DNA of 64,000 nt from Synechococcus sp. PCC 7335 (GTDB taxonomy: Bacteria; Cyanobacteriota; Cyanobacteriia; Phormidesmidales; Phormidesmidaceae). The position numbers were made by a program, and so were the translations under genes. Under the pieces are notes generated by a model. The model was not told the origin of the DNA. It did no database searches and saw only the letters and a program-made list of their open reading frames with translations. Every line of letters begins with the position of its first letter. The first letter of the stretch is position 1. The stretch spans positions 1,085,354-1,149,353 of the forward strand of contig NZ_DS989904.1 in assembly GCF_000155595.1 (NCBI RefSeq), given 5' to 3'. This document shows positions 1-44,421 of the stretch, one piece after another.

Positions 1-2
1 CT

Positions 3-434
3 TTGGTTAGAAGCCTCACTAGACTTTTGATGAATGCAGTTACACCACTCGTAATGCTGCTGCTAGGCATGTCTCAGCCGGTACAAAATCTTGCTCTAGT
101 GCTATCCGAGCTGCCAGATGGCGAGCATTATTACGCAGAACCAACGTCTAGTGAACTGATCGATGAGCGCTCGCTAGTCCTAGAAAAATGGGGACGTATT
201 GTCATTGGCGTCGATACGATTTCATCCTCTAAGATGGCTTGCTTTAAAGGCTTTGTTGATGGGGATGCGATCGTGGATGCAACGCGCGTTCTTCCTCCTT
301 ACACTCCCAATGCTGAATGGACTTACCAGCCAGGTGAAATGATTAGCTTGAGTGACTATGACAGACGCATAGAAGCGATCGCCGCAACTGATAGAACCGC
401 CTTAGACATCTGCTTAGAGGTTTTTGCGCGCTAA
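3..434 (+). CDS. Hypothetical protein, probably partial at the left edge or secreted
   Basis: I do not recognise this protein. The frame is open to the left edge, so the true start may lie outside the window. An ATG at position 30 would give a protein that begins with a hydrophobic stretch (LVMLLLGMSQP) resembling a signal peptide. The rest is a mixed soluble sequence of about 110 residues, ending with a run rich in acidic and aliphatic residues (TALDICLEVFAR). No catalytic motif is visible. The only downstream neighbour is the convergent nurA gene, about 200 bases away. The reading frame is credible because codon use is like that of neighbouring genes and it contains HIP1. Function is unknown. 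Confidence 0.5.
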   Translation: MVRSLTRLLMNAVTPLVMLLLGMSQPVQNLALVLSELPDGEHYYAEPTSSELIDERSLVLEKWGRIVIGVDTISSSKMACFKGFVDGDAIVDATRVLPPYTPNAEWTYQPGEMISLSDYDRRIEAIAATDRTALDICLEVFAR

Positions 435-9269: not shown

Positions 9270-10253
9270 ATGGATAACAACCTGTTGTTGATACTCAGAG
9301 CACTACTGGCGATCGCGCTGGGCTCAGGCGGTGTCATTGCTATCTTCTATGGGCTCAATATCCTGGTTGAAAAGGCTCTACCCAAAGGAACGCAGCGCCG
9401 AATTCTGCCCTGGATTTATGTAGGACCCTCCCTCCTACTGCTGTTGGTTTATCTGGTGCTACCCACCATTCGCACTATCTATCTCAGCTTTTTCAACAAC
9501 GATTCGAGTCGCTTTGTCGGACTGAGAAACTATATTTTTGCCTTCACCTCGCCCGATATGTTGATTGCTTTTCGCAACAACCTGCTATGGCTAGTGTTAG
9601 TAACAGGTATTAGCGTTGGACTAGGGTTAATCATCGCTGTGTTAGTCGATAGGGTGCGATATGAGCCTTTGGCTAAATCCTTGATCTTCTTACCGATGGC
9701 GATTTCGTTCGTGGGCGCGAGCGTTATCTGGCGATTTGTCTATGCCTATCGGCCAGCGGGAAGTGAACAGATTGGACTACTCAACGCGGTTGTGACTTTT
9801 CTCGGGTTCGAACCGATTGGCTGGCTAGTCGAGCGTGATATCAATAACTTTGCGCTGATTGCCATTATGATTTGGCTGCAGACAGGCTTTTGTATGGTGC
9901 TGCTCTCTTCAGCCGTCAAAGGCGTGCCTAAAGATGTAATCGAAGCCGCTAGAGTAGACGGTGCTAACGAGTTTCAGATTTTTCGGCGGATTATCGTACC
10001 GATGATCATGCCAACGGTAACAGTGGTCTCCACGACGGTGATTGTCTTAGTACTGAAGGTGTTTGATATTGTTTTTGTGATGACAGGTGGCAACTTAGAT
10101 ACCGATGTGATCGCCAGTCGAATGGTCAGAGAAATGTTCAACTTTCGCAACTTTGGTCGGGGTAGTGCGATCGCAGTTATCTTACTGATCGCGGTCATTC
10201 CCGTCATGGTGGCCAACATTCGCCGCTTTCGCCAGCAGGAGCTAGATCGATGA
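9270..10253 (+). CDS. ggtC: Sugar ABC transporter permease, GgtC/AglF-type
   Basis: A 327-residue inner-membrane permease of a carbohydrate (CUT1-type) importer. About seven hydrophobic spans are visible, and the cytoplasmic EAA loop, which couples to the ATPase, is EAARVDGANEFQIFRRIIVP from about residue 225. The sequence fits the AglF/GgtC branch that takes up glucosylglycerol, sucrose and trehalose in salt-tolerant cyanobacteria. The following permease overlaps it by 4 bp (ATGA), a sign of translational coupling. The usual solute-binding protein gene (ggtB) is not next to it. The substrate is inferred from family only. Confidence 0.82.
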   Translation: MDNNLLLILRALLAIALGSGGVIAIFYGLNILVEKALPKGTQRRILPWIYVGPSLLLLLVYLVLPTIRTIYLSFFNNDSSRFVGLRNYIFAFTSPDMLIAFRNNLLWLVLVTGISVGLGLIIAVLVDRVRYEPLAKSLIFLPMAISFVGASVIWRFVYAYRPAGSEQIGLLNAVVTFLGFEPIGWLVERDINNFALIAIMIWLQTGFCMVLLSSAVKGVPKDVIEAARVDGANEFQIFRRIIVPMIMPTVTVVSTTVIVLVLKVFDIVFVMTGGNLDTDVIASRMVREMFNFRNFGRGSAIAVILLIAVIPVMVANIRRFRQQELDR

Positions 10254-11188
10254 CGAGCGCCAAATCCATTCCTCCACAATCGCCTCAGCCACGGCTACCG
10301 GGTCCGCGCTATCAGCGCAGCCGCAAAGAAAAGTCTGGGTTCGAGCAATTTGTGGCCAAAGCGCCAGTCCATATTGCGGTCGTTGCGATTGCGGTTCTGT
10401 GGACATTGCCAACGCTAGGGCTATTGATCAGCTCCTTTCGGCCCGCTGAAGACTTAACCAGTAGCGGCTGGTGGACTGTGTTTGTCAATCCGTTTGAATT
10501 TACCCAGTTCACGCTTAGCAACTATGCTCAAGTCTTGTTCGATCAGGGCATGGGACAAGCTTTTCTCAACAGCTTAGTGATTTCCGTGCCTGCGACGGTG
10601 ATTCCGATTGCGATCGCTACCTTCGCAGCCTACGCGCTTGCTTGGATGGAATTTCCCGGCCGTCAAACCTTATTCATCATTACCGTTGGGCTCCTAGTCG
10701 TACCGCTACAGATGACGTTAATTCCAATCTTGCGAGCCTATACCGCACTAGGGCTCTCTGGCACTTACCTCGCGGTTTGGCTGGCGCACAGTGCCTATGG
10801 ATTGCCGCTAGGCGTATACCTATTGCGCAATTACATTGGCTCATTGCCCCGCGATTTAATCGAAGCTGCAACGGTTGATGGCGCTTCCCACTTACAGGTA
10901 TTCTCACGAGTCATTGTTCCACTCAGCATGCCGGCGATCGCCTCTTTTGCCGTCTTTCAGTTTCTTTGGGTCTGGAATGATTTGCTTGTGGCTCTAGTAT
11001 ATCTAGGCGGCAATCAAGATGTTGCTCCAGTGACGCTAGTACTCAGAAATATTGTGGGCGATCGCGGCCAGGATTGGTTTCTTCTCACCGCTGGGGCGTT
11101 CGTCTCTATGCTGGTGCCGATGATTGTCTTTTTTGCCCTACAGCGCTACTTCGTGCGCGGTCTGCTAGCAGGCTCCGTCAAAGGATAG
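10250..11188 (+). CDS. ggtD: Sugar ABC transporter permease, GgtD/AglG-type
   Basis: The second permease of the heterodimeric channel, 312 residues. A proline- and basic-rich cytoplasmic N-terminus precedes about six membrane segments. The EAA loop reads EAATVDGASHLQVFSRVIVP from about residue 205, matching the MalG-like subunit. Its start overlaps the stop codon of the partner permease by 4 bp, and the ATPase gene starts 61 bp after its end, so the three form one transcription unit. As with the partner, uptake of compatible solutes such as glucosylglycerol or sucrose is the likely role. Confidence 0.82.
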   Translation: MTSAKSIPPQSPQPRLPGPRYQRSRKEKSGFEQFVAKAPVHIAVVAIAVLWTLPTLGLLISSFRPAEDLTSSGWWTVFVNPFEFTQFTLSNYAQVLFDQGMGQAFLNSLVISVPATVIPIAIATFAAYALAWMEFPGRQTLFIITVGLLVVPLQMTLIPILRAYTALGLSGTYLAVWLAHSAYGLPLGVYLLRNYIGSLPRDLIEAATVDGASHLQVFSRVIVPLSMPAIASFAVFQFLWVWNDLLVALVYLGGNQDVAPVTLVLRNIVGDRGQDWFLLTAGAFVSMLVPMIVFFALQRYFVRGLLAGSVKG

Positions 11189-11249: not shown

Positions 11250-12356
11250 ATGTCTAGTGTCACCTTTGAGAATGTCACCAAACAATACGAAAACGGATTT
11301 GTCGCTGTAAAAGACTTAAACATCCAGCTAGAGGATAAAGAGTTTCTGGTTCTAGTAGGACCTTCTGGCTGCGGTAAAACCACTTCGCTTAGGATGCTAG
11401 CAGGCCTAGAAGATATTACTAGCGGCAGCATCTACATCGGTGGACAAAGGGTAAACAACGTCACCCCTAAAGATCGAGATATCGCGATGGTATTTCAATC
11501 TTATGCGCTGTATCCGCATATGACTGTCGCCGAGAATATGGGCTTTAGTTTAGATCTTAAGGGCGTCTCGAAAGCTGAAATTAATAAACGAGTGAAGGCC
11601 GCCGGACAGCAGCTAGGGATTGAACACTTATTGGATCGCAAGCCCAAGCAGCTATCAGGTGGACAACGGCAGCGGGTTGCCTTGGGCCGAGCAATTGTGC
11701 GATCGCCGGCTGTTTTTTTGATGGATGAGCCGCTCTCTAACCTCGATGCCAAACTCCGGGTTCAAGCCCGCGCCGAACTCAGCCAGCTGCATAAGAAAGT
11801 TGGCACTACCTTTGTCTATGTCACTCACGATCAGGCCGAAGCAATGACGATGGGCTCTCGTATTGCGGTGATGAACAGCGGCATTTTGCAACAGATTGAC
11901 ACACCTCAAAACGTCTACGATCATCCTAACAATATTTTTGTGGCGGGCTTCTTAGGTAGCCCATCGATGAATTTTTTCGAGGCGAGGCTACTCCGACAAA
12001 ACGACGAGCTAGTCATCAAAACCGATAGCGGCATTGTTGTTCCAATCCCACCCGAGCGGCTTGAGCGCTACCTGGAATTTCAGGGTCGCCCTGTCGTTTT
12101 CGGTATCCGCCCCGAAGGGATCTACCATCCTCAGTATGTTCCGCCTGGTATTACTCCGGTCAGCATTCCAGCTACCGCTACCGTTGTCGAACTGATGGGC
12201 TATGAAATCATCGTTTACTTCACGCTGCAAGATGGCACCGAATTTATCGCCCGTTTAGACCCTAGAGCCAAAGTCGCTCCGGGCGAAGCTCTTAACCTAC
12301 AGTTCGATCTCACTCGCTTTCATCTTTTTGATCAGGAAAGCGAGCAGGTAATTTAG
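11250..12356 (+). CDS. ggtA: Sugar ABC transporter ATPase, GgtA/UgpC/MalK-type
   Basis: A 368-residue ATPase that powers sugar importers. Motifs: Walker A GPSGCGKTT at residues 37-45, signature LSGGQ at 135-139, Walker B FLMDE ending at Glu160, and H-loop His193 in VTHDQ. Beyond residue 235 is a MalK-type OB-fold regulatory domain (VFGIRPEGIY), typical of UgpC/MalK/GgtA subunits that can serve more than one permease. In Synechocystis ggtA is separate from ggtBCD; here it sits directly after the two permeases, while the binding-protein gene is missing. Identity as a CUT1 ATPase is certain; the symbol is by homology. Confidence 0.88.
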   Translation: MSSVTFENVTKQYENGFVAVKDLNIQLEDKEFLVLVGPSGCGKTTSLRMLAGLEDITSGSIYIGGQRVNNVTPKDRDIAMVFQSYALYPHMTVAENMGFSLDLKGVSKAEINKRVKAAGQQLGIEHLLDRKPKQLSGGQRQRVALGRAIVRSPAVFLMDEPLSNLDAKLRVQARAELSQLHKKVGTTFVYVTHDQAEAMTMGSRIAVMNSGILQQIDTPQNVYDHPNNIFVAGFLGSPSMNFFEARLLRQNDELVIKTDSGIVVPIPPERLERYLEFQGRPVVFGIRPEGIYHPQYVPPGITPVSIPATATVVELMGYEIIVYFTLQDGTEFIARLDPRAKVAPGEALNLQFDLTRFHLFDQESEQVI

Positions 12357-12474
12357 ACGACCTAAGCCAGCAAGACGTTGCCCCTTCCCAAACCACCAAA
12401 GGAGCGCATTCACCTTTTCAAAAGCAGGATTTACCTGATACGAGCAGTGAACTCTACTGCGCCTAGTACTGTGC

Positions 12475-14109
12475 TTAGGAAGCTTCAACAATAGTAATTG
12501 GCAGTTCGCTCATCTCTAAGAGGTGGTGAGCTACCGAACCAACAGATCTTTTAGCAGTCGTCTGCGCATTAATAAAGCTGAAGCTGTTCTTACCGACAAC
12601 AATATCGGTTGCGTGGTAGGTAATAGCAGCCTGTAGGATTTCTCTCTCAATCGAGCCTGAGACTGTAACAAATTGATGGCGGATATCAGCTAGCAACTTA
12701 TGGCTCTGAATCTCTAGACAGTCGAGTTCTAGGCTATCTAGCTGCTGATAGATATGAATTACTACAACGCTAGCCTCACTATGGCGCGCCATCTCTGCGG
12801 CCTTCAGTAAAACCTGTTTAGCTGTCGGAGAGCTATCGACGGCAGCGAGAAGCACAGAAGTTTGATCAACCGTTGTTTTTGTCGGATCAACCCGATCACG
12901 CTGCAATAGCTTCGGTGCGAATGTTGGAATGGCCCAAGCTCCAGCAGGTGCAGTGATCAGAATGGACAGCGCTGCGATCGCCAGAATCACCTCTCCACCT
13001 TCTATGCCCATCGCCAAAGGAATTGCTCCGATTGCAGCTTGCACCGTCGCCTTTGCCGAATTTCCTGGCAATAGGAACAGTCGTTCTTTGAAGGTCCAAT
13101 TGCTCCCTAATGTAGATAGATACCAGCCCAGCGATCGCCCTATCAGAGTCCCAATTACTAATAACAACAATCCTAGCCAAAAGATCTCTTCTAAAATGCC
13201 AATTTGAATACTCGCGCCTAGTAAAACAAATAGAACAATCTCTGCAATCGTCCATAGGCCGCCGAATCCTTGCCGTAGCTGCCTTGCGAAAGGTGGATCG
13301 GATTGAATCAAAAAGAATCCAGTTGCCATTACGGCTAGATAGCCAGAAAACAACAGCGTCTGCTGCGCGGTTACGACCAGCAATAGAGCACTACTCGCTA
13401 CGATCAAAGTACTCTGTATACCGGGCTGCACCCATTGTTGTCGAACAATCATAACTATCAGTAGCTTCGCACTCAGCCAGCCGACAACAACACCCAAGCT
13501 CACCTGCATCACGACTTGAAAGGGCAGCACTTGCAACGGACTTAGAACAAAGCCACCAGGTAAAACAACTTCTGTCGCCGCCGTTTGAGACAAGAACGCC
13601 AGCAGCAGACTAAACACTAATAGCAGCAGCACATCTGATAGGGCGCTACCCATCAAAATGGCATCGGGAATGCCCTTCTTCACGCCGTATCCCAGTCTTT
13701 TTAGCCGCAGCATTCCTGGCACAATCACTGCTGGAGATTCCGCACCGACTAAGCACCCCAGCAGCAATCCAGTGAAAAAATCAAATTGAAACAGCCACAT
13801 CGCGCAAAAAGCGACCGCGATCGCCTCAAAAGCTGCAGGTAAAAATCCCAGCCGCAGCGCCACTGTTCCCTGCTGAGCTAGCTTCTCCGGGTCTAGCCCT
13901 AACCCGGCCTTCATCAAAACCACCATCACTGCGATGCTGCGTAGCGCATCTGCTGATTGCAGCACCTCCACGCTAAGCATATTGCCCAACTGAGGACCTA
14001 ACGCAGCCCCAGCGAGCACCATACCTAGCAGCGGCGGCGCTCCTAACCGCTGAGCTAATCGGCCCGCAATCAAGCCTCCTAGTAGAATCCAAATCCAACT
14101 CGATAGCAC
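12475..14109 (-). CDS. CPA2-type cation:proton antiporter with C-terminal universal stress domain
   Basis: A 544-residue protein. Residues about 1-380 hold 11-13 hydrophobic segments of the Na+/H+ exchanger (CPA2, KefB-like) fold. From about residue 395 a UspA-like domain follows (SVLLAAVDSSPTAKQVL to the C-terminus HHLLEMSELPITIVEA), which could bind nucleotide and tune transport. It starts 6 bp after the Nudix gene stop, on the same strand, so the two are likely co-transcribed. Fusion of antiporters with USP domains is known in cyanobacteria. Whether it moves Na+ or K+ cannot be told here. Confidence 0.87.
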   Translation of the reverse strand: MLSSWIWILLGGLIAGRLAQRLGAPPLLGMVLAGAALGPQLGNMLSVEVLQSADALRSIAVMVVLMKAGLGLDPEKLAQQGTVALRLGFLPAAFEAIAVAFCAMWLFQFDFFTGLLLGCLVGAESPAVIVPGMLRLKRLGYGVKKGIPDAILMGSALSDVLLLLVFSLLLAFLSQTAATEVVLPGGFVLSPLQVLPFQVVMQVSLGVVVGWLSAKLLIVMIVRQQWVQPGIQSTLIVASSALLLVVTAQQTLLFSGYLAVMATGFFLIQSDPPFARQLRQGFGGLWTIAEIVLFVLLGASIQIGILEEIFWLGLLLLVIGTLIGRSLGWYLSTLGSNWTFKERLFLLPGNSAKATVQAAIGAIPLAMGIEGGEVILAIAALSILITAPAGAWAIPTFAPKLLQRDRVDPTKTTVDQTSVLLAAVDSSPTAKQVLLKAAEMARHSEASVVVIHIYQQLDSLELDCLEIQSHKLLADIRHQFVTVSGSIEREILQAAITYHATDIVVGKNSFSFINAQTTAKRSVGSVAHHLLEMSELPITIVEAS

Positions 14110-39021: not shown

Positions 39022-40812
39022 CTAGGGCAAAATCCTATTCTCTATTCTGTATATTGGAAGTCCTTTGGTGGCTTTGTTTTGTTCGTCTGCTCCTTCGCGT
39101 GGGAGCGTACCTCTTTGCAGTTTTTCAAGGCGATGTTGAGCAGTCTTGCTGCTCGCTAGTGTCTTTAGGTCATCTAGGTTACTAGTTGATGCGACTGATT
39201 GGGGTTCGATAATGTCTAAATCCTCAGGAGCCACGTCTTTCTGGTTCGCATCTAAGCTAAAGAGCTCTGATTCGTCAGTCGATGAGTTAGCCAGTGAAAT
39301 ATCCGGTAGTTTTAGACTCGTCGCTACTTTAGTGTTTGAAGAGTTAACGTTACTGACTGCAGCTCTCTTTCCCTGTGTGATAGGCATAAGTTCTGGGGTA
39401 GGGCTAAATACGACGGATGGAACATTATTCCTAGCAGACTGTCCTTTCGAAGCAGGTTCTTTGGGGAGTGGTACTACCAACTTATGTGCTTTCTCGTTTG
39501 GAGAGAAAGCCTTCAGAGCCTTGGAGACAGCGGAGATACGCCTCTCTTGGTCTCGGCTGATGCTACGGACATTATTCCCTAATCCAGGCGCGTTCCAATT
39601 GCGAGTATGAGGGTCGTGATAGGCATAGGTTCGCGCCCAAAGGATGGCCTCTTCTCCTTTCATTTTGAGTCGACGAGCTTGGGCAAGCCGCTCTATATAG
39701 CCGCCTTTATCTAAGGCAGCTAAGGGCGCTTGATTTGCCAAATCCAAGGCATTTAGCTTTTCTTCTAGAGATAGTTGTATGCCCAATCGTGTTGCCTGTT
39801 CCTCTATCTGATAGCTCTGTCGTTTGAGGCGCTGAAGCTGTTTTCTATCAGCCTCTTCTGGGCTGTTGGCACCATGTTGATATGAGAACGTACCTAGGTT
39901 CCACACACCATTGCCAGGGTCAATATGACCGTAGTAAGCGTTAGTGCGATCGCCACTCCAATGTCGGGTTCCTTCCGCGCTACCGACGGTGCGAGCTACG
40001 AGGGAGTTACTGCCGTCGAGAAATATCCAGTCGTCGAGAGTAGTCCCGTCTAAGGAAGTCGCCTTGATATCAGGTGGCGGATCGAAAGGTATACTCCCAG
40101 AGGCTGAGGACTTAGTGAGTGCTGTCTTTATGGCTGATGTCCTTGATACACTATCTAAATTGGTTGGTTCAAATGAGAGTTTTACCTCTTTTAAAGAAAC
40201 TGGATTTGAACTGAAGCTCCTAGAATTAACAGAGTCTGACGTAACAGTCCGGGAAGCTATAGTGGCTGTGTCAGCGTTTTCTAGTGGAGAAAGTGCTGAA
40301 GTTGAAGAGTTAGTCCCAGATTTATTGTTTTCTTTGATCGCAATCCTGCTATTGGAAAAACGAAGTCCGATGTCGTTTGCTTTGGCATGAGGTAGCTGCT
40401 CTGGTTCGGGCTTAATAGGCTTGGTTTCGATGTGTTCAGGCTTTAAACGGTCAGTATTATCATTAGTCAGTTTGGGAGGAAAAGGTGGAAGGAGTTCTTG
40501 AGCGTACCCTAGTGTGTCAGATTCAATCGGAATGGGTACGTTTGGAACAGGGACAGGTTCGTAGCTTTCTATCGAAGCGCTGGTAGTGTTGACCCGGTGG
40601 TGAGGATTTTTTGCGGCTGGTCTTACTTTGTTTGGGAGGGCTTTAATAGCTTGAGAGTTGATAGCGTGAGAATCGAGTTGTGATAGTTCGAAAGCCATAC
40701 CTAGCTTAGTCTGTGCAGCTTGAGCAGATCTATATAGGCTAGTCCAGCCCAATAGGGAGGGCAATAGGGTAAGAACGAATAGATTGGGAAATTTCAGCAT
40801 CTTTGAATCCAC
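39022..40812 (-). CDS. Secreted protein with lysozyme-like C-terminal domain, function unknown
   Basis: A 596-residue protein with an N-terminal signal sequence (about 7-33, ending AQAAQ). Residues about 35-270 are low-complexity, Ser/Thr/Pro and Asn rich, without motifs. A conserved region follows at about 275-435. It begins with the SAEGTR segment and includes YYGHIDPGNGVWNLGTFSYQ, then a helix LANQAPLAALDKGGYIERL. The Glu of SAEGT and the following residues recall the catalytic region of lambda-type endolysins and muramidases, so peptidoglycan binding or cleavage is possible. This is inference. The C-terminal 150 residues are again disordered. It is the last gene of a four-gene minus-strand operon. 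Confidence 0.65.
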   Translation of the reverse strand: MDSKMLKFPNLFVLTLLPSLLGWTSLYRSAQAAQTKLGMAFELSQLDSHAINSQAIKALPNKVRPAAKNPHHRVNTTSASIESYEPVPVPNVPIPIESDTLGYAQELLPPFPPKLTNDNTDRLKPEHIETKPIKPEPEQLPHAKANDIGLRFSNSRIAIKENNKSGTNSSTSALSPLENADTATIASRTVTSDSVNSRSFSSNPVSLKEVKLSFEPTNLDSVSRTSAIKTALTKSSASGSIPFDPPPDIKATSLDGTTLDDWIFLDGSNSLVARTVGSAEGTRHWSGDRTNAYYGHIDPGNGVWNLGTFSYQHGANSPEEADRKQLQRLKRQSYQIEEQATRLGIQLSLEEKLNALDLANQAPLAALDKGGYIERLAQARRLKMKGEEAILWARTYAYHDPHTRNWNAPGLGNNVRSISRDQERRISAVSKALKAFSPNEKAHKLVVPLPKEPASKGQSARNNVPSVVFSPTPELMPITQGKRAAVSNVNSSNTKVATSLKLPDISLANSSTDESELFSLDANQKDVAPEDLDIIEPQSVASTSNLDDLKTLASSKTAQHRLEKLQRGTLPREGADEQNKATKGLPIYRIENRILP

Positions 40813-40903
40813 ACAGTTGTGAAAAGAAAAAACATTTACAACAAACAGTGAACAATAGACAACGAGTGCTAGCTCTGTTCTTTTGAGGATGTCAGGCTAT
40901 GTT

Positions 40904-41353
40904 CTATGGTTCGAAAGCTTGTTCTAGAACAGTTCTAGCTGGCTCAACAATGATCCATGTGCCATCGGGCTGTCGTCGAAGAGTAGCGAAGCTAAGGTAC
41001 TGGCCTTTTCCAATTACCTTTCCAGCTTTCACTGAACCATAGCTCACATCACTTAATCCACAGAACCGAAATAGGTACGCTGGGATTTCTGGCGTTGAAT
41101 ACAGCGTACAATCGTCTGATTCGCTGAGTTCTAAGTCACCGTCAAAAGGTGCTTTAACCTTTCGACCTTCCAAGTACAGGGATATGTCACCTAGACTACC
41201 GGTGACTAGATTTCCAGCAATTTCGTCGCCTGGATTCAAGGTCCACTGTTGCTGTAAAGTGATACTACGAGATTCTGGAGTAGTGGAGGCATCGCAGCCT
41301 AATGCTATGAGGCTACTAAAGAACAGAACATAAAAAAGCCAAATAACTTTCAT
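40904..41353 (-). CDS. Putative lipoprotein with LytM/lipoyl-like fold, function unknown
   Basis: A 149-residue protein with a clear lipoprotein signal: hydrophobic stretch then LIALGC, with the modified Cys at about residue 20. The mature part is a beta-rich domain. The pattern APFDGDLELSESDD, followed by VKAGKVIGKGQYLSFATLR, resembles the biotinyl-lipoyl/M23 (LytM) beta-sandwich, but no metal-binding HxH motif is seen. So it may be an inactive relative. It sits 91 bp upstream of the lysozyme-like gene on the same strand, third in a four-gene unit. Likely held at the periplasmic face of the outer or inner membrane. Confidence 0.55.
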   Translation of the reverse strand: MKVIWLFYVLFFSSLIALGCDASTTPESRSITLQQQWTLNPGDEIAGNLVTGSLGDISLYLEGRKVKAPFDGDLELSESDDCTLYSTPEIPAYLFRFCGLSDVSYGSVKAGKVIGKGQYLSFATLRRQPDGTWIIVEPARTVLEQAFEP

Positions 41354-41394
41354 GGTTAGTCAGTAAGCAAGAGATAAAAGAACAAGAAAATTAC

Positions 41395-41838
41395 TCAAAG
41401 CTTGAAATCATAACCTGCATATTCACCATCTTCGTACAAGATGATAAGCGCTTTATCTGGTGCAAATGCAAGTGGGTAAGCTTCTCTTTTTGCCTCAACA
41501 CCAGCACGAACATTTATGGGAGTTAGCTGACAGTATGGCTGCTCAACTACCTCATGGATACGTTGCATACTTTCTCGTTCTGGAATAGTTAGAAGCTCGG
41601 CAAGTTGCTGCCTAGAGAGCTGCGCAGAGTCTATAACTTCCCCTGTACAAACGGTCGAAAGTTTCTCAGTAGCTGATTTTGAACCTATTGTTGGAATGAA
41701 GTCCATTGGACTACGGATAAGAGTCTTAATATCGTTGAAATCTGTGAGCAAACTAAATAAGGAAATGATTAATCCACCAGCGATAATCGGTTTGAAGCCA
41801 GCTGCGGATGTTTTTTTGGTTGGCGGGGACTGTACCAC
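41395..41838 (-). CDS. Single-span membrane protein, function unknown
   Basis: A 147-residue protein. A short cytoplasmic N-terminus with a Lys/Thr-rich stretch is followed by one membrane segment (about 17-33, PIIAGGLIISLFSLLTD). The remaining 110 residues form a periplasmic domain with two Cys (STVCTGEV and PYCQLTP), which may form a disulphide. I do not recognise a family. It is second in the operon, 60 bp after the coiled-coil membrane protein and 41 bp before the lipoprotein. The spacing and orientation suggest that it works with them. Confidence 0.6.
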   Translation of the reverse strand: MVQSPPTKKTSAAGFKPIIAGGLIISLFSLLTDFNDIKTLIRSPMDFIPTIGSKSATEKLSTVCTGEVIDSAQLSRQQLAELLTIPERESMQRIHEVVEQPYCQLTPINVRAGVEAKREAYPLAFAPDKALIILYEDGEYAGYDFKL

Positions 41839-41898
41839 GGTTGTGACTCCTGCTGTGATTCCTAAAGAGCGAAAGATTTCTCTTGAAAAGAAGCGAGT

Positions 41899-43131
41899 TT
41901 ATAGGACGCTGCCTAGGAACAAACCTAGAAGCACTGCACCAGCGCGAAAGGTTGCATGCATAGTTTTGGACTGTGAAAGAACAGCACGGTAGATTAAATA
42001 AGCGATAGTGCAAACGATCACCAGCAACAGCGGCACCTGGAAACTCGGATAGTTAAGAATAAGCGCGTTGAGGAAAACTCGTAGGATCGCAGCGCTAGCA
42101 CTCCAAATCGTTGCATCTAGCCAAGAAAAGCTGCTGCGAAGATCAACATCAGCAGAACTTCTCTCCACTACAGGTTGAGTTTTGGTGATAGGAGAAGCTT
42201 CCTTCTTTTTACTTTGTTTTCTTATAGCCTGTCCTAGATTAACAAGCAGGCGCTTATAAGGTTTTATGGTTCGTTTTGTTTGGTTGAGGGCTAGATTAGG
42301 GGCTTTTTTTTGTTCGCATTTAGGGCTGCTGTCGTTTGCGTATATTCGTTTACTTCTGTTTGAATGTATGGCAGAGCCTGCTGATTGACTAGGTTCAAGA
42401 CAGTCACGCAACGTATGATTAGAGGCTGTTGGCTCTGAGAAAGGAACTGTTGATGAAAGCTGTTGTCGCGCGATCGCTGCGTTGTCTATAGCGTCTGTTT
42501 CTGCCTGATTGAGATTGACAGTTGAGTAGCTAAGATGAAGCTTTCCATTCCTATCAACCTCGAGCTGGGGAATAGAAGCAGTAGAAGAGTGTTCTATGAA
42601 TTGACCAATAATATCGAGCTGCGGATGCACTCGCGTACCCCTGCGGCGATGAGAGAAAGCTATTTGTTGAGCGGAGCGTTTTAGGCTCAATAGTTCGCTC
42701 GCTTGCTGCTGCGAACGCTCATTAATGCTGCTGATTAGCTCTGCTAGTTGAGGTAGCTCTCTATCAATGACATCGTAAGCTCTATTTCGTGATGAACTAT
42801 TTCGAGAAGAACTATCTAAGGAGTCTAAACGAGAGTTGGAACTAGAAGAGCTAGTACACATTCTGCTTCCATCAAAGCTGCCGTGCAAACTCTCGTATGT
42901 TTGATGCTCTAAACGGTGCTTTAGCGTCTTAATTGCAGTCGCTGAGGATCTAGTCTTTGCCTCATCTGATTGGCTAATAGAAAGTGGTCGTTGACTCCTA
43001 GACTTTTTTGTGGATATCTGGTCCAACTTAGACCCCGCCCAAGGTGACATTCCGATATCACTTGCTGATTCAGCTCGTAGAGAATGCAGCTTTTCACGAA
43101 TTGCTTGAAGTTCCATGTCGTAGTTTCTCAT
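41899..43131 (-). CDS. Coiled-coil/Ser-rich protein with C-terminal membrane helices, function unknown
   Basis: A 410-residue protein that opens the four-gene unit. The first 35 residues (MELQAIREKLHSLRAES) look like a coiled coil; an ATG at 43116 is an equally good start. A long polar region rich in Ser, Arg and Gln (including SSSSSNSRL and SLDSSSRNSSSRNR) follows. The C-terminus has three hydrophobic segments at about 340-362, 368-388 and 395-410. So a large cytoplasmic domain is tethered to the inner membrane. No enzymatic motif is seen. No similarity is recognised, and the next three genes follow within 100 bp each. Confidence 0.6.
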   Translation of the reverse strand: MRNYDMELQAIREKLHSLRAESASDIGMSPWAGSKLDQISTKKSRSQRPLSISQSDEAKTRSSATAIKTLKHRLEHQTYESLHGSFDGSRMCTSSSSSNSRLDSLDSSSRNSSSRNRAYDVIDRELPQLAELISSINERSQQQASELLSLKRSAQQIAFSHRRRGTRVHPQLDIIGQFIEHSSTASIPQLEVDRNGKLHLSYSTVNLNQAETDAIDNAAIARQQLSSTVPFSEPTASNHTLRDCLEPSQSAGSAIHSNRSKRIYANDSSPKCEQKKAPNLALNQTKRTIKPYKRLLVNLGQAIRKQSKKKEASPITKTQPVVERSSADVDLRSSFSWLDATIWSASAAILRVFLNALILNYPSFQVPLLLVIVCTIAYLIYRAVLSQSKTMHATFRAGAVLLGLFLGSVL

Positions 43132-43545: not shown

Positions 43546-44421
43546 ATGGCAAAAGCTGATTGGCGGTTTTCTCATCACGTAACACAGCAATTCGGGCGTT
43601 CTGATCCTAGATATGTGACTCAGCAGCCAGAAAGCTCAACAGTACATAGCTCAACAGTACATAGAGAGCCAGATCATCCGCTCTATCACTCAACAATGGC
43701 GCTCCTACTTGCCGGACAGGTGATACACCGGTTGCTAAGAGGGCGGTTTGGCCAACGCCAGATCATGGACCACCTAATGAGTGCTGGTCCGCGCTGTGTG
43801 GCGTCGGTCATTGCAACCAATGTCTGTGCTGGGCTCATCTTTGGAATTCAGACAGCTCGGGAGATGTCTCGTTTTGGTGCTGTGAGTTCTTTAGGAAGCG
43901 CATTTGCAGCTGGCTACTGCTCTGAGCTAGCGCCTATCTTGACAGCGGGTGTACTGGCTTGTCAGGTAGGGAGTGCATTCGCCGCCGAGATCGCTGCTAT
44001 GAAACTGACCCAGCAGATTGATGCTTTAAAGATGCTGCGAACAGACCCTATTGACTACTTGGTCATGCCAAGGGTGATTGCTTGCGCTGTCATGCTGCCA
44101 ATGCTAACCGTCTTAGCTCTAGTTTGCGGTGTGATGAGTGGCGGCTTCTTAACAACCTATTATTATCATCTGCCGATGGGGACCTTCTTAGACGGGGTAC
44201 GCGGTGCTTTGAGTGTGTCTGATGTCCTGCTAATCATGGGTAAGGCAATACTGTTTGGTCTGGTAATTGCGATCGCCAGCTGTAGTAGAGGATTAACTTC
44301 AGCACTTCATGGCAAGGGTGTGGGACAGTCGGCGACTTCGGCTGTGATGATGGCCTGGATAGCGCTATTTTTTATCGACTTGGTGATTGCTTTTCTTGCT
44401 CTGTTGGCCATAGTGACCTAA
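43546..44421 (+). CDS. MlaE/TGD1-family lipid ABC transporter permease
   Basis: A 291-residue inner-membrane permease of the MlaE family, which moves phospholipids or related lipids between membranes with an MlaF-type ATPase and MlaD-type protein. The conserved core runs from about residue 50: GQVIHRLLRGR, FGIQTAREMSRFGA, ELAPILTAGVLACQVGSAFAAEIAAMK, and MPRVIACAVMLPMLT. Five hydrophobic segments follow. The first 50 residues are unlike the family and contain a 15-bp tandem duplication (STVHSSTVH). The best ribosome site precedes an out-of-frame ATG at 43538, so the true N-terminus is uncertain. MlaF and MlaD genes are not adjacent. Confidence 0.82.
   Translation: MAKADWRFSHHVTQQFGRSDPRYVTQQPESSTVHSSTVHREPDHPLYHSTMALLLAGQVIHRLLRGRFGQRQIMDHLMSAGPRCVASVIATNVCAGLIFGIQTAREMSRFGAVSSLGSAFAAGYCSELAPILTAGVLACQVGSAFAAEIAAMKLTQQIDALKMLRTDPIDYLVMPRVIACAVMLPMLTVLALVCGVMSGGFLTTYYYHLPMGTFLDGVRGALSVSDVLLIMGKAILFGLVIAIASCSRGLTSALHGKGVGQSATSAVMMAWIALFFIDLVIAFLALLAIVT

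Follow-up and report, generated by a model that had tools for sequence, protein, structure and literature searches.

Four adjacent genes in Synechococcus sp. PCC 7335, designated A, B, C and D, belong to a real, widely conserved and apparently undescribed cyanobacterial gene set. The set encodes two membrane proteins (A and B), a lipoprotein that its sequence marks as a dead M23 protein (C) and a secreted-type protein with a predicted lysozyme-superfamily domain (D). With confidence slightly above even, the operon is interpreted as a periplasmic peptidoglycan-remodelling unit in which D is a glycosidase, C resembles a LytM factor and A and B serve as anchors. The genes are located as follows within the window, the 64,000-nucleotide stretch of DNA that was analyzed:

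41899-43131, minus strand: gene A, an open reading frame of 410 amino acids
41395-41838, minus strand: gene B, an open reading frame of 147 amino acids
40904-41353, minus strand: gene C, an open reading frame of 149 amino acids
39022-40812, minus strand: gene D, an open reading frame of 596 amino acids
39514-40026, minus strand: predicted lysozyme-superfamily domain of D (residues ~263-433), supported by alignments, an AlphaFold model, PDB matches and M23 fusions

A preliminary description had proposed four head-to-tail genes with gaps of 41-91 bp, and the open reading frames agree with it, with 60 bp between A and B, 41 bp between B and C and 91 bp between C and D. The lack of terminator-like sites in the region, where promoter-like sites occur at the level of shuffled sequence, hints weakly at a single transcript from A to D.

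The conservation of the set was assessed at several phylogenetic depths. B, C and D are present in exactly the same 29 out of 38 relatives, whereas A, which is much less conserved and the fastest-diverging of the four genes, was recognised in 23 of them. Among 388 Cyanobacteriia genomes, which are not independent so that the counts and phi values are descriptive and uncorrected for phylogeny, 165 contain the D domain, 156 contain C and 154 contain B; 149 genomes have all three, 219 lack all three, and only 20 carry a partial set (11 with D alone and 9 with other combinations), corresponding to phi values of 0.97 for B-C, 0.92 for C-D and 0.90 for B-D. Because B, C and D are conserved together, chance open reading frames are excluded, and the possibility that these three genes occur independently of each other in other genomes was not borne out. 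Within its own family the operon is present in 56 out of 58 genomes, based on a search with the D domain. Mantel correlations among the A-D distances range from 0.39 to 0.54 and are inseparable from species history.

The gene order was scored in named genomes, where a scan returned 80 best loci of which 62 had at least 3.5 kb of sequence upstream of D. The order A-B-C-D was retained in 43 of the 62 loci (42 plain and one A-A-B-C-D), seven loci displayed B-C-D and twelve another or shorter set, in line with the earlier proposal that the genes form one system. Extra copies are found elsewhere as B-C pairs or lone D genes, not every D adjoins C and B, and both D and C reach several copies per genome in some genomes. 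Two loci (L117, 8116-11114, and L119, 7950-10946) contain second B-C pairs that lack D and are divergent to a gene of ~546 codons; the two ~546-residue products share one cluster, and that of L117 belongs to the DNA photolyase/cryptochrome family.

The genes surrounding the set are conserved among close relatives and change outside the family. Downstream of D on the same strand lies a Fur-family gene (PF01475; 38327-38785, minus strand) that occupies the same position in 20 named loci. FurC (PerR), a member of this family in Anabaena, is reported to regulate peptidoglycan remodelling (PMC10936207), and a regulatory link of the Fur-family gene with the operon is worth testing. Divergent from A is a gene for an MlaE-type lipid-transport permease (43546-44421, plus strand) that is conserved in 16 loci of close relatives, and dnaN is found near the set in close relatives.

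As had been noted from the sequence, no member of the set belongs to a recognised family: A, B, C and D remained below every cut-off in searches of Pfam, NCBIfam and PHROGs. The members of the B, C and D-domain alignments matched no informative Pfam family, sequence searches of the PDB with the proteins and the alignments returned no informative match, and no description of the A-D gene set was found in the papers searched.

Protein D has a signal-peptide-like N terminus, and its sole conserved part is a domain of ~175 residues between poorly conserved, low-complexity flanks. An alignment of 82 sequences displays 24 invariant columns within the domain, including E280, H296 and D298, and the signature AEGTR...YxGHxDPGN...N.G.FSYQH...DLANQ.P...DQxRR. 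The AlphaFold model of the domain (pLDDT 90, pTM 0.86) gave as best Foldseek matches in the PDB the muramidase domain of SpmX and prophage muramidases (E 0.04-0.1, probability 0.97-0.99), and realignment of the model resulted in Z scores of 8.3 for P22 lysozyme, 8.1 for a prophage muramidase, 8.0 for MltE, 7.8 for a GH46 chitosanase and about 6 for T4 lysozyme. The single scores are modest, but nearly the entire top of the structure list consists of the lysozyme superfamily, and the consistency of the list together with the gene context points to a lysozyme-superfamily fold for the modelled domain. A lysozyme-like region had been suspected in D; the model supports a lysozyme fold for the region that contains the SAEGT motif and limits it to residues ~263-433. 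The conserved glutamate, E280, which is invariant in all 82 sequences, lies where the first long helix of the domain ends and would face Glu11 of T4 lysozyme, as judged from the aligned ranges (28..194 to 1..164) and not from residue-level output. None of the 82 members matched the Pfam lysozyme models, and NCBIfam and PHROGs returned no lysozyme-family match for the D protein of the window; the domain probably represents its own branch of the lysozyme superfamily.

Protein C carries a lipobox-type signal ending in LIALGC, and the lipobox cysteine is present in 93% of 61 sequences. The AlphaFold model of the mature part (pLDDT 90, pTM 0.79) matched LytM domains in the PDB, among them that of PrgK (E 3e-4), and realignment gave Z scores of 9.7 for EnvC (rmsd 2.1 over 91 residues), 9.5 for DipM and 8.7 for SpoIIQ. 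A profile of C also matched M23 proteins from plasmids and viruses (probability 97%, E 7e-11). The model thus suggests a LytM (M23) fold for the mature part, and the proposal of a lipoprotein with a LytM-like fold holds; the refuting outcome, predicted structures of C and D that show no relationship to LytM or lysozyme, was not observed. The zinc ligands (H...D and HxH) are absent from C: the H-x-H of these plasmid and viral M23 proteins is aligned to Y-x-S, C shows a gap in place of the first zinc motif, and no histidine column exceeds 41% among the 61 sequences, all of which share two invariant cysteines. Since the conserved zinc ligands are missing, C should not be a working peptidase, and an active M23 enzyme was rejected on the lack of a conserved histidine. 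By its sequence C is a dead M23 lipoprotein, for which the loss of the ligands makes regulation or tethering likelier than catalysis. Matches of the C profile to 'Cake' propellers were taken as chance because no stretch passes alone.

The two remaining proteins are predicted to be membrane bound. Protein A begins with a variable part prone to coiled coils and ends in a conserved membrane domain of two to three hydrophobic segments, which hydropathy places at residues about 341-386 and, more weakly, towards residue 410; it is a probable inner-membrane anchor or platform. Protein B has a single membrane span (residues 13-31, by hydropathy) followed by a domain of ~90 residues that is presumably periplasmic and, given two invariant cysteines in the alignment, probably contains a disulfide. 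The B profile had no sequence match in the PDB and Pfam.

Relatives of the D domain are also found on mobile elements. On cyanobacterial plasmids and some viral contigs the domain adjoins a genuine M23 domain or is fused to it, with either of the two coming first, and in Microcoleus phage My-WqHQDG its neighbours carry the annotations amidase, LytH endopeptidase and M23 peptidase. That the D domain is found repeatedly with a peptidoglycan peptidase is good evidence that it acts on peptidoglycan. Among viral structures, by far the nearest to the D model comes from an uncultured Krakvirus phage (E 2e-8). In this phage (L213, 2200-5172) the domain is the C-terminal part of a protein of 990 residues that is annotated as LysM-containing and is possibly an ejected internal virion protein.

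Fusions of M23 and the D domain occur in cassettes at four loci (L094, 8125-12312; L095, 4460-8614; L096, 4361-8447; and L121, 8190-12477), the last on a cyanobacterial plasmid and the others in genomes. Each cassette encodes, in order, a protein of ~240-270 amino acids, a protein of ~430-510 amino acids, one or two small proteins and the M23-D fusion, and the ~430-510 residue protein shows weak matches to P-loop NTPases in L094 and L095. The cassettes could represent an undescribed DNA-transfer or envelope apparatus. On a Leptolyngbya boryana plasmid (L122) a fusion of M23 and DUF2927 (PF11150) at 9795-11168 precedes a stand-alone D-domain gene at 11827-12501, and the M23 part of this fusion is the closest active relative of C that was found. 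A phage or plasmid origin of the locus itself was rejected, as C has no plasmid match and the plasmid and phage relatives of D are distant; such a source is likely only as the ancestry of the domains.

The computed folds, the loss of zinc ligands from C, the fixed gene order and the co-occurrence underlie the favoured remodelling model, and from there we infer that D is catalytic, that C contacts and regulates it, that A and B act as anchors, and at which site and in which process the unit works. D would be a secreted glycosidase of lysozyme fold that cuts glycan strands, as a muramidase or possibly a lytic transglycosylase, with Glu280 as the general acid. C would act like the LytM factors EnvC, NlpD and DipM, docking D, and possibly a host amidase too, in the groove of its dead active site and thereby switching D on or holding it in place, while B and A would position the C-D pair at a site on the inner membrane for septal or other wall remodelling. 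In DipM, an inactive LytM domain uses its dead-site groove to bind a soluble lytic transglycosylase as well as an amidase, and stimulates both (PMC10336132); the analogy makes regulation or positioning of D the most likely role of C. Against this model, the 11 genomes with a lone D imply that D can work without C.

A more specific evolutionary reading, held tentatively, is that of an envelope-spanning wall-opening machine of cyanobacteria derived from an ancestral pair of M23 peptidase and lysozyme, which is still fused on plasmids and phages. The pair would have split into a regulator and a cutter when the peptidase became the zinc-less lipoprotein C, with D as the cutter and A and B, neither with known relatives, tying both to a site such as the septum.

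Less probable than the remodelling model is that the wall cutter serves an envelope-crossing structure, such as a septal-junction pore, a pilus, an export channel or a DNA-transfer machine, with A and B as an inner-membrane platform, C as a bridge through the periplasm and D as the opener of the peptidoglycan. The fixed order of membrane proteins, lipoprotein and lysozyme-like protein is compatible with this, as are the likeness of C to SpoIIQ (Z 8.7), which supplies the LytM part of a channel across the envelope, and the weak P-loop NTPase matches in the cassettes with M23-D fusions. As stated in the preliminary description, none of the four genes encodes an ATPase. Genes for an energising ATPase and a channel, the marks of a secretion or pilus system, are absent from the four genes and their conserved neighbours, and no secretin or pilin is encoded in or beside the operon. 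Furthermore, the neighbours are MlaE, Fur and housekeeping genes that vary outside the family, and sequence searches with the B profile revealed no likeness to ring-building domains, including SpoIIIAH.

Phages, viral contigs and plasmids carry the D domain along with M23, which could also suggest a domesticated wall-lysis module for programmed lysis or filament breakage (necridia, hormogonium release). This is improbable: the operon lies on the chromosome beside dnaN and fur, its family has kept it with vertical stability (56/58 genomes), it contains no holin-like gene, and a catalytically dead C fits control better than lysis. An antibacterial lysozyme effector D with C and B as periplasmic immunity or inhibitor proteins, which would explain the multiple copies within a genome and the position of a secreted lysozyme-like protein beside two small ones, a lipoprotein and an anchored protein, is very improbable given that C is homologous to peptidases and not to known lysozyme inhibitors, that B-C pairs persist without a nearby D, that the set is slow-evolving and fixed in position among close relatives, and that no delivery signal was found.

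The process served by the remodelling unit may relate to multicellular growth. The hosts of the best named loci are presumably filamentous, judging by their genus names, so a role in septum formation, in the breakage of filaments or at septal pores is plausible. PF01832, a rough proxy for TftA, is present in 143 out of 156 genomes with C and in a further 79 genomes without C; the set is therefore not a general requirement for filaments, and its interpretation as a general filament gene set was rejected.

Controlled wall cutting in filamentous cyanobacteria has been studied mostly via amidases, for example AmiC in Anabaena and Nostoc. An unnamed set that combines a predicted lysozyme fold with a LytM factor-like protein in about 40% of the cyanobacterial genomes sampled would add a new lineage of hydrolases and supply a testable pair of regulator and enzyme. 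With DipM as the first, it would perhaps be the second example of a dead LytM domain that works together with a cutter of glycan strands.

Several known systems resemble parts of the set. The domain of D shares its predicted fold and the invariant glutamate with GH24-type muramidases, P22 and T4 lysozymes, the muramidase domain of SpmX and MltE, but it has no sequence match to these families and its conserved residues (H296, D298, N301, Q312, H313) differ from those of known lysozyme families. The SpoIIQ-SpoIIIAH engulfment channel of sporulating Firmicutes also combines a dead LytM protein with a single-span membrane protein in a setting of wall remodelling; however, sequence similarity between B and SpoIIIAH was not found, C is a lipoprotein and there is no sporulation context. 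AmiC, TftA and SepT are wall and septum proteins described in Anabaena and Nostoc (PMC5591844, PMC10710843, PMC10653889), and the wall remodelling of filamentous cyanobacteria is the probable setting of A-D too, although the domains of these proteins are different (amidase, glucosaminidase and coiled coil, respectively). Like the LytM factors EnvC, NlpD, DipM and ActS, C appears to be a periplasmic protein with a LytM fold that has lost its zinc ligands and is encoded with a candidate peptidoglycan hydrolase, and like NlpD it is a lipoprotein. In contrast to these factors, C has neither a LysM domain nor a coiled coil, contains two invariant cysteines and has as its genetic partner a lysozyme-like protein instead of an amidase or FtsX. 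By analogy, the A-D set would work like a LytM factor that comes with its own hydrolase, the activation of which by C is a prediction.
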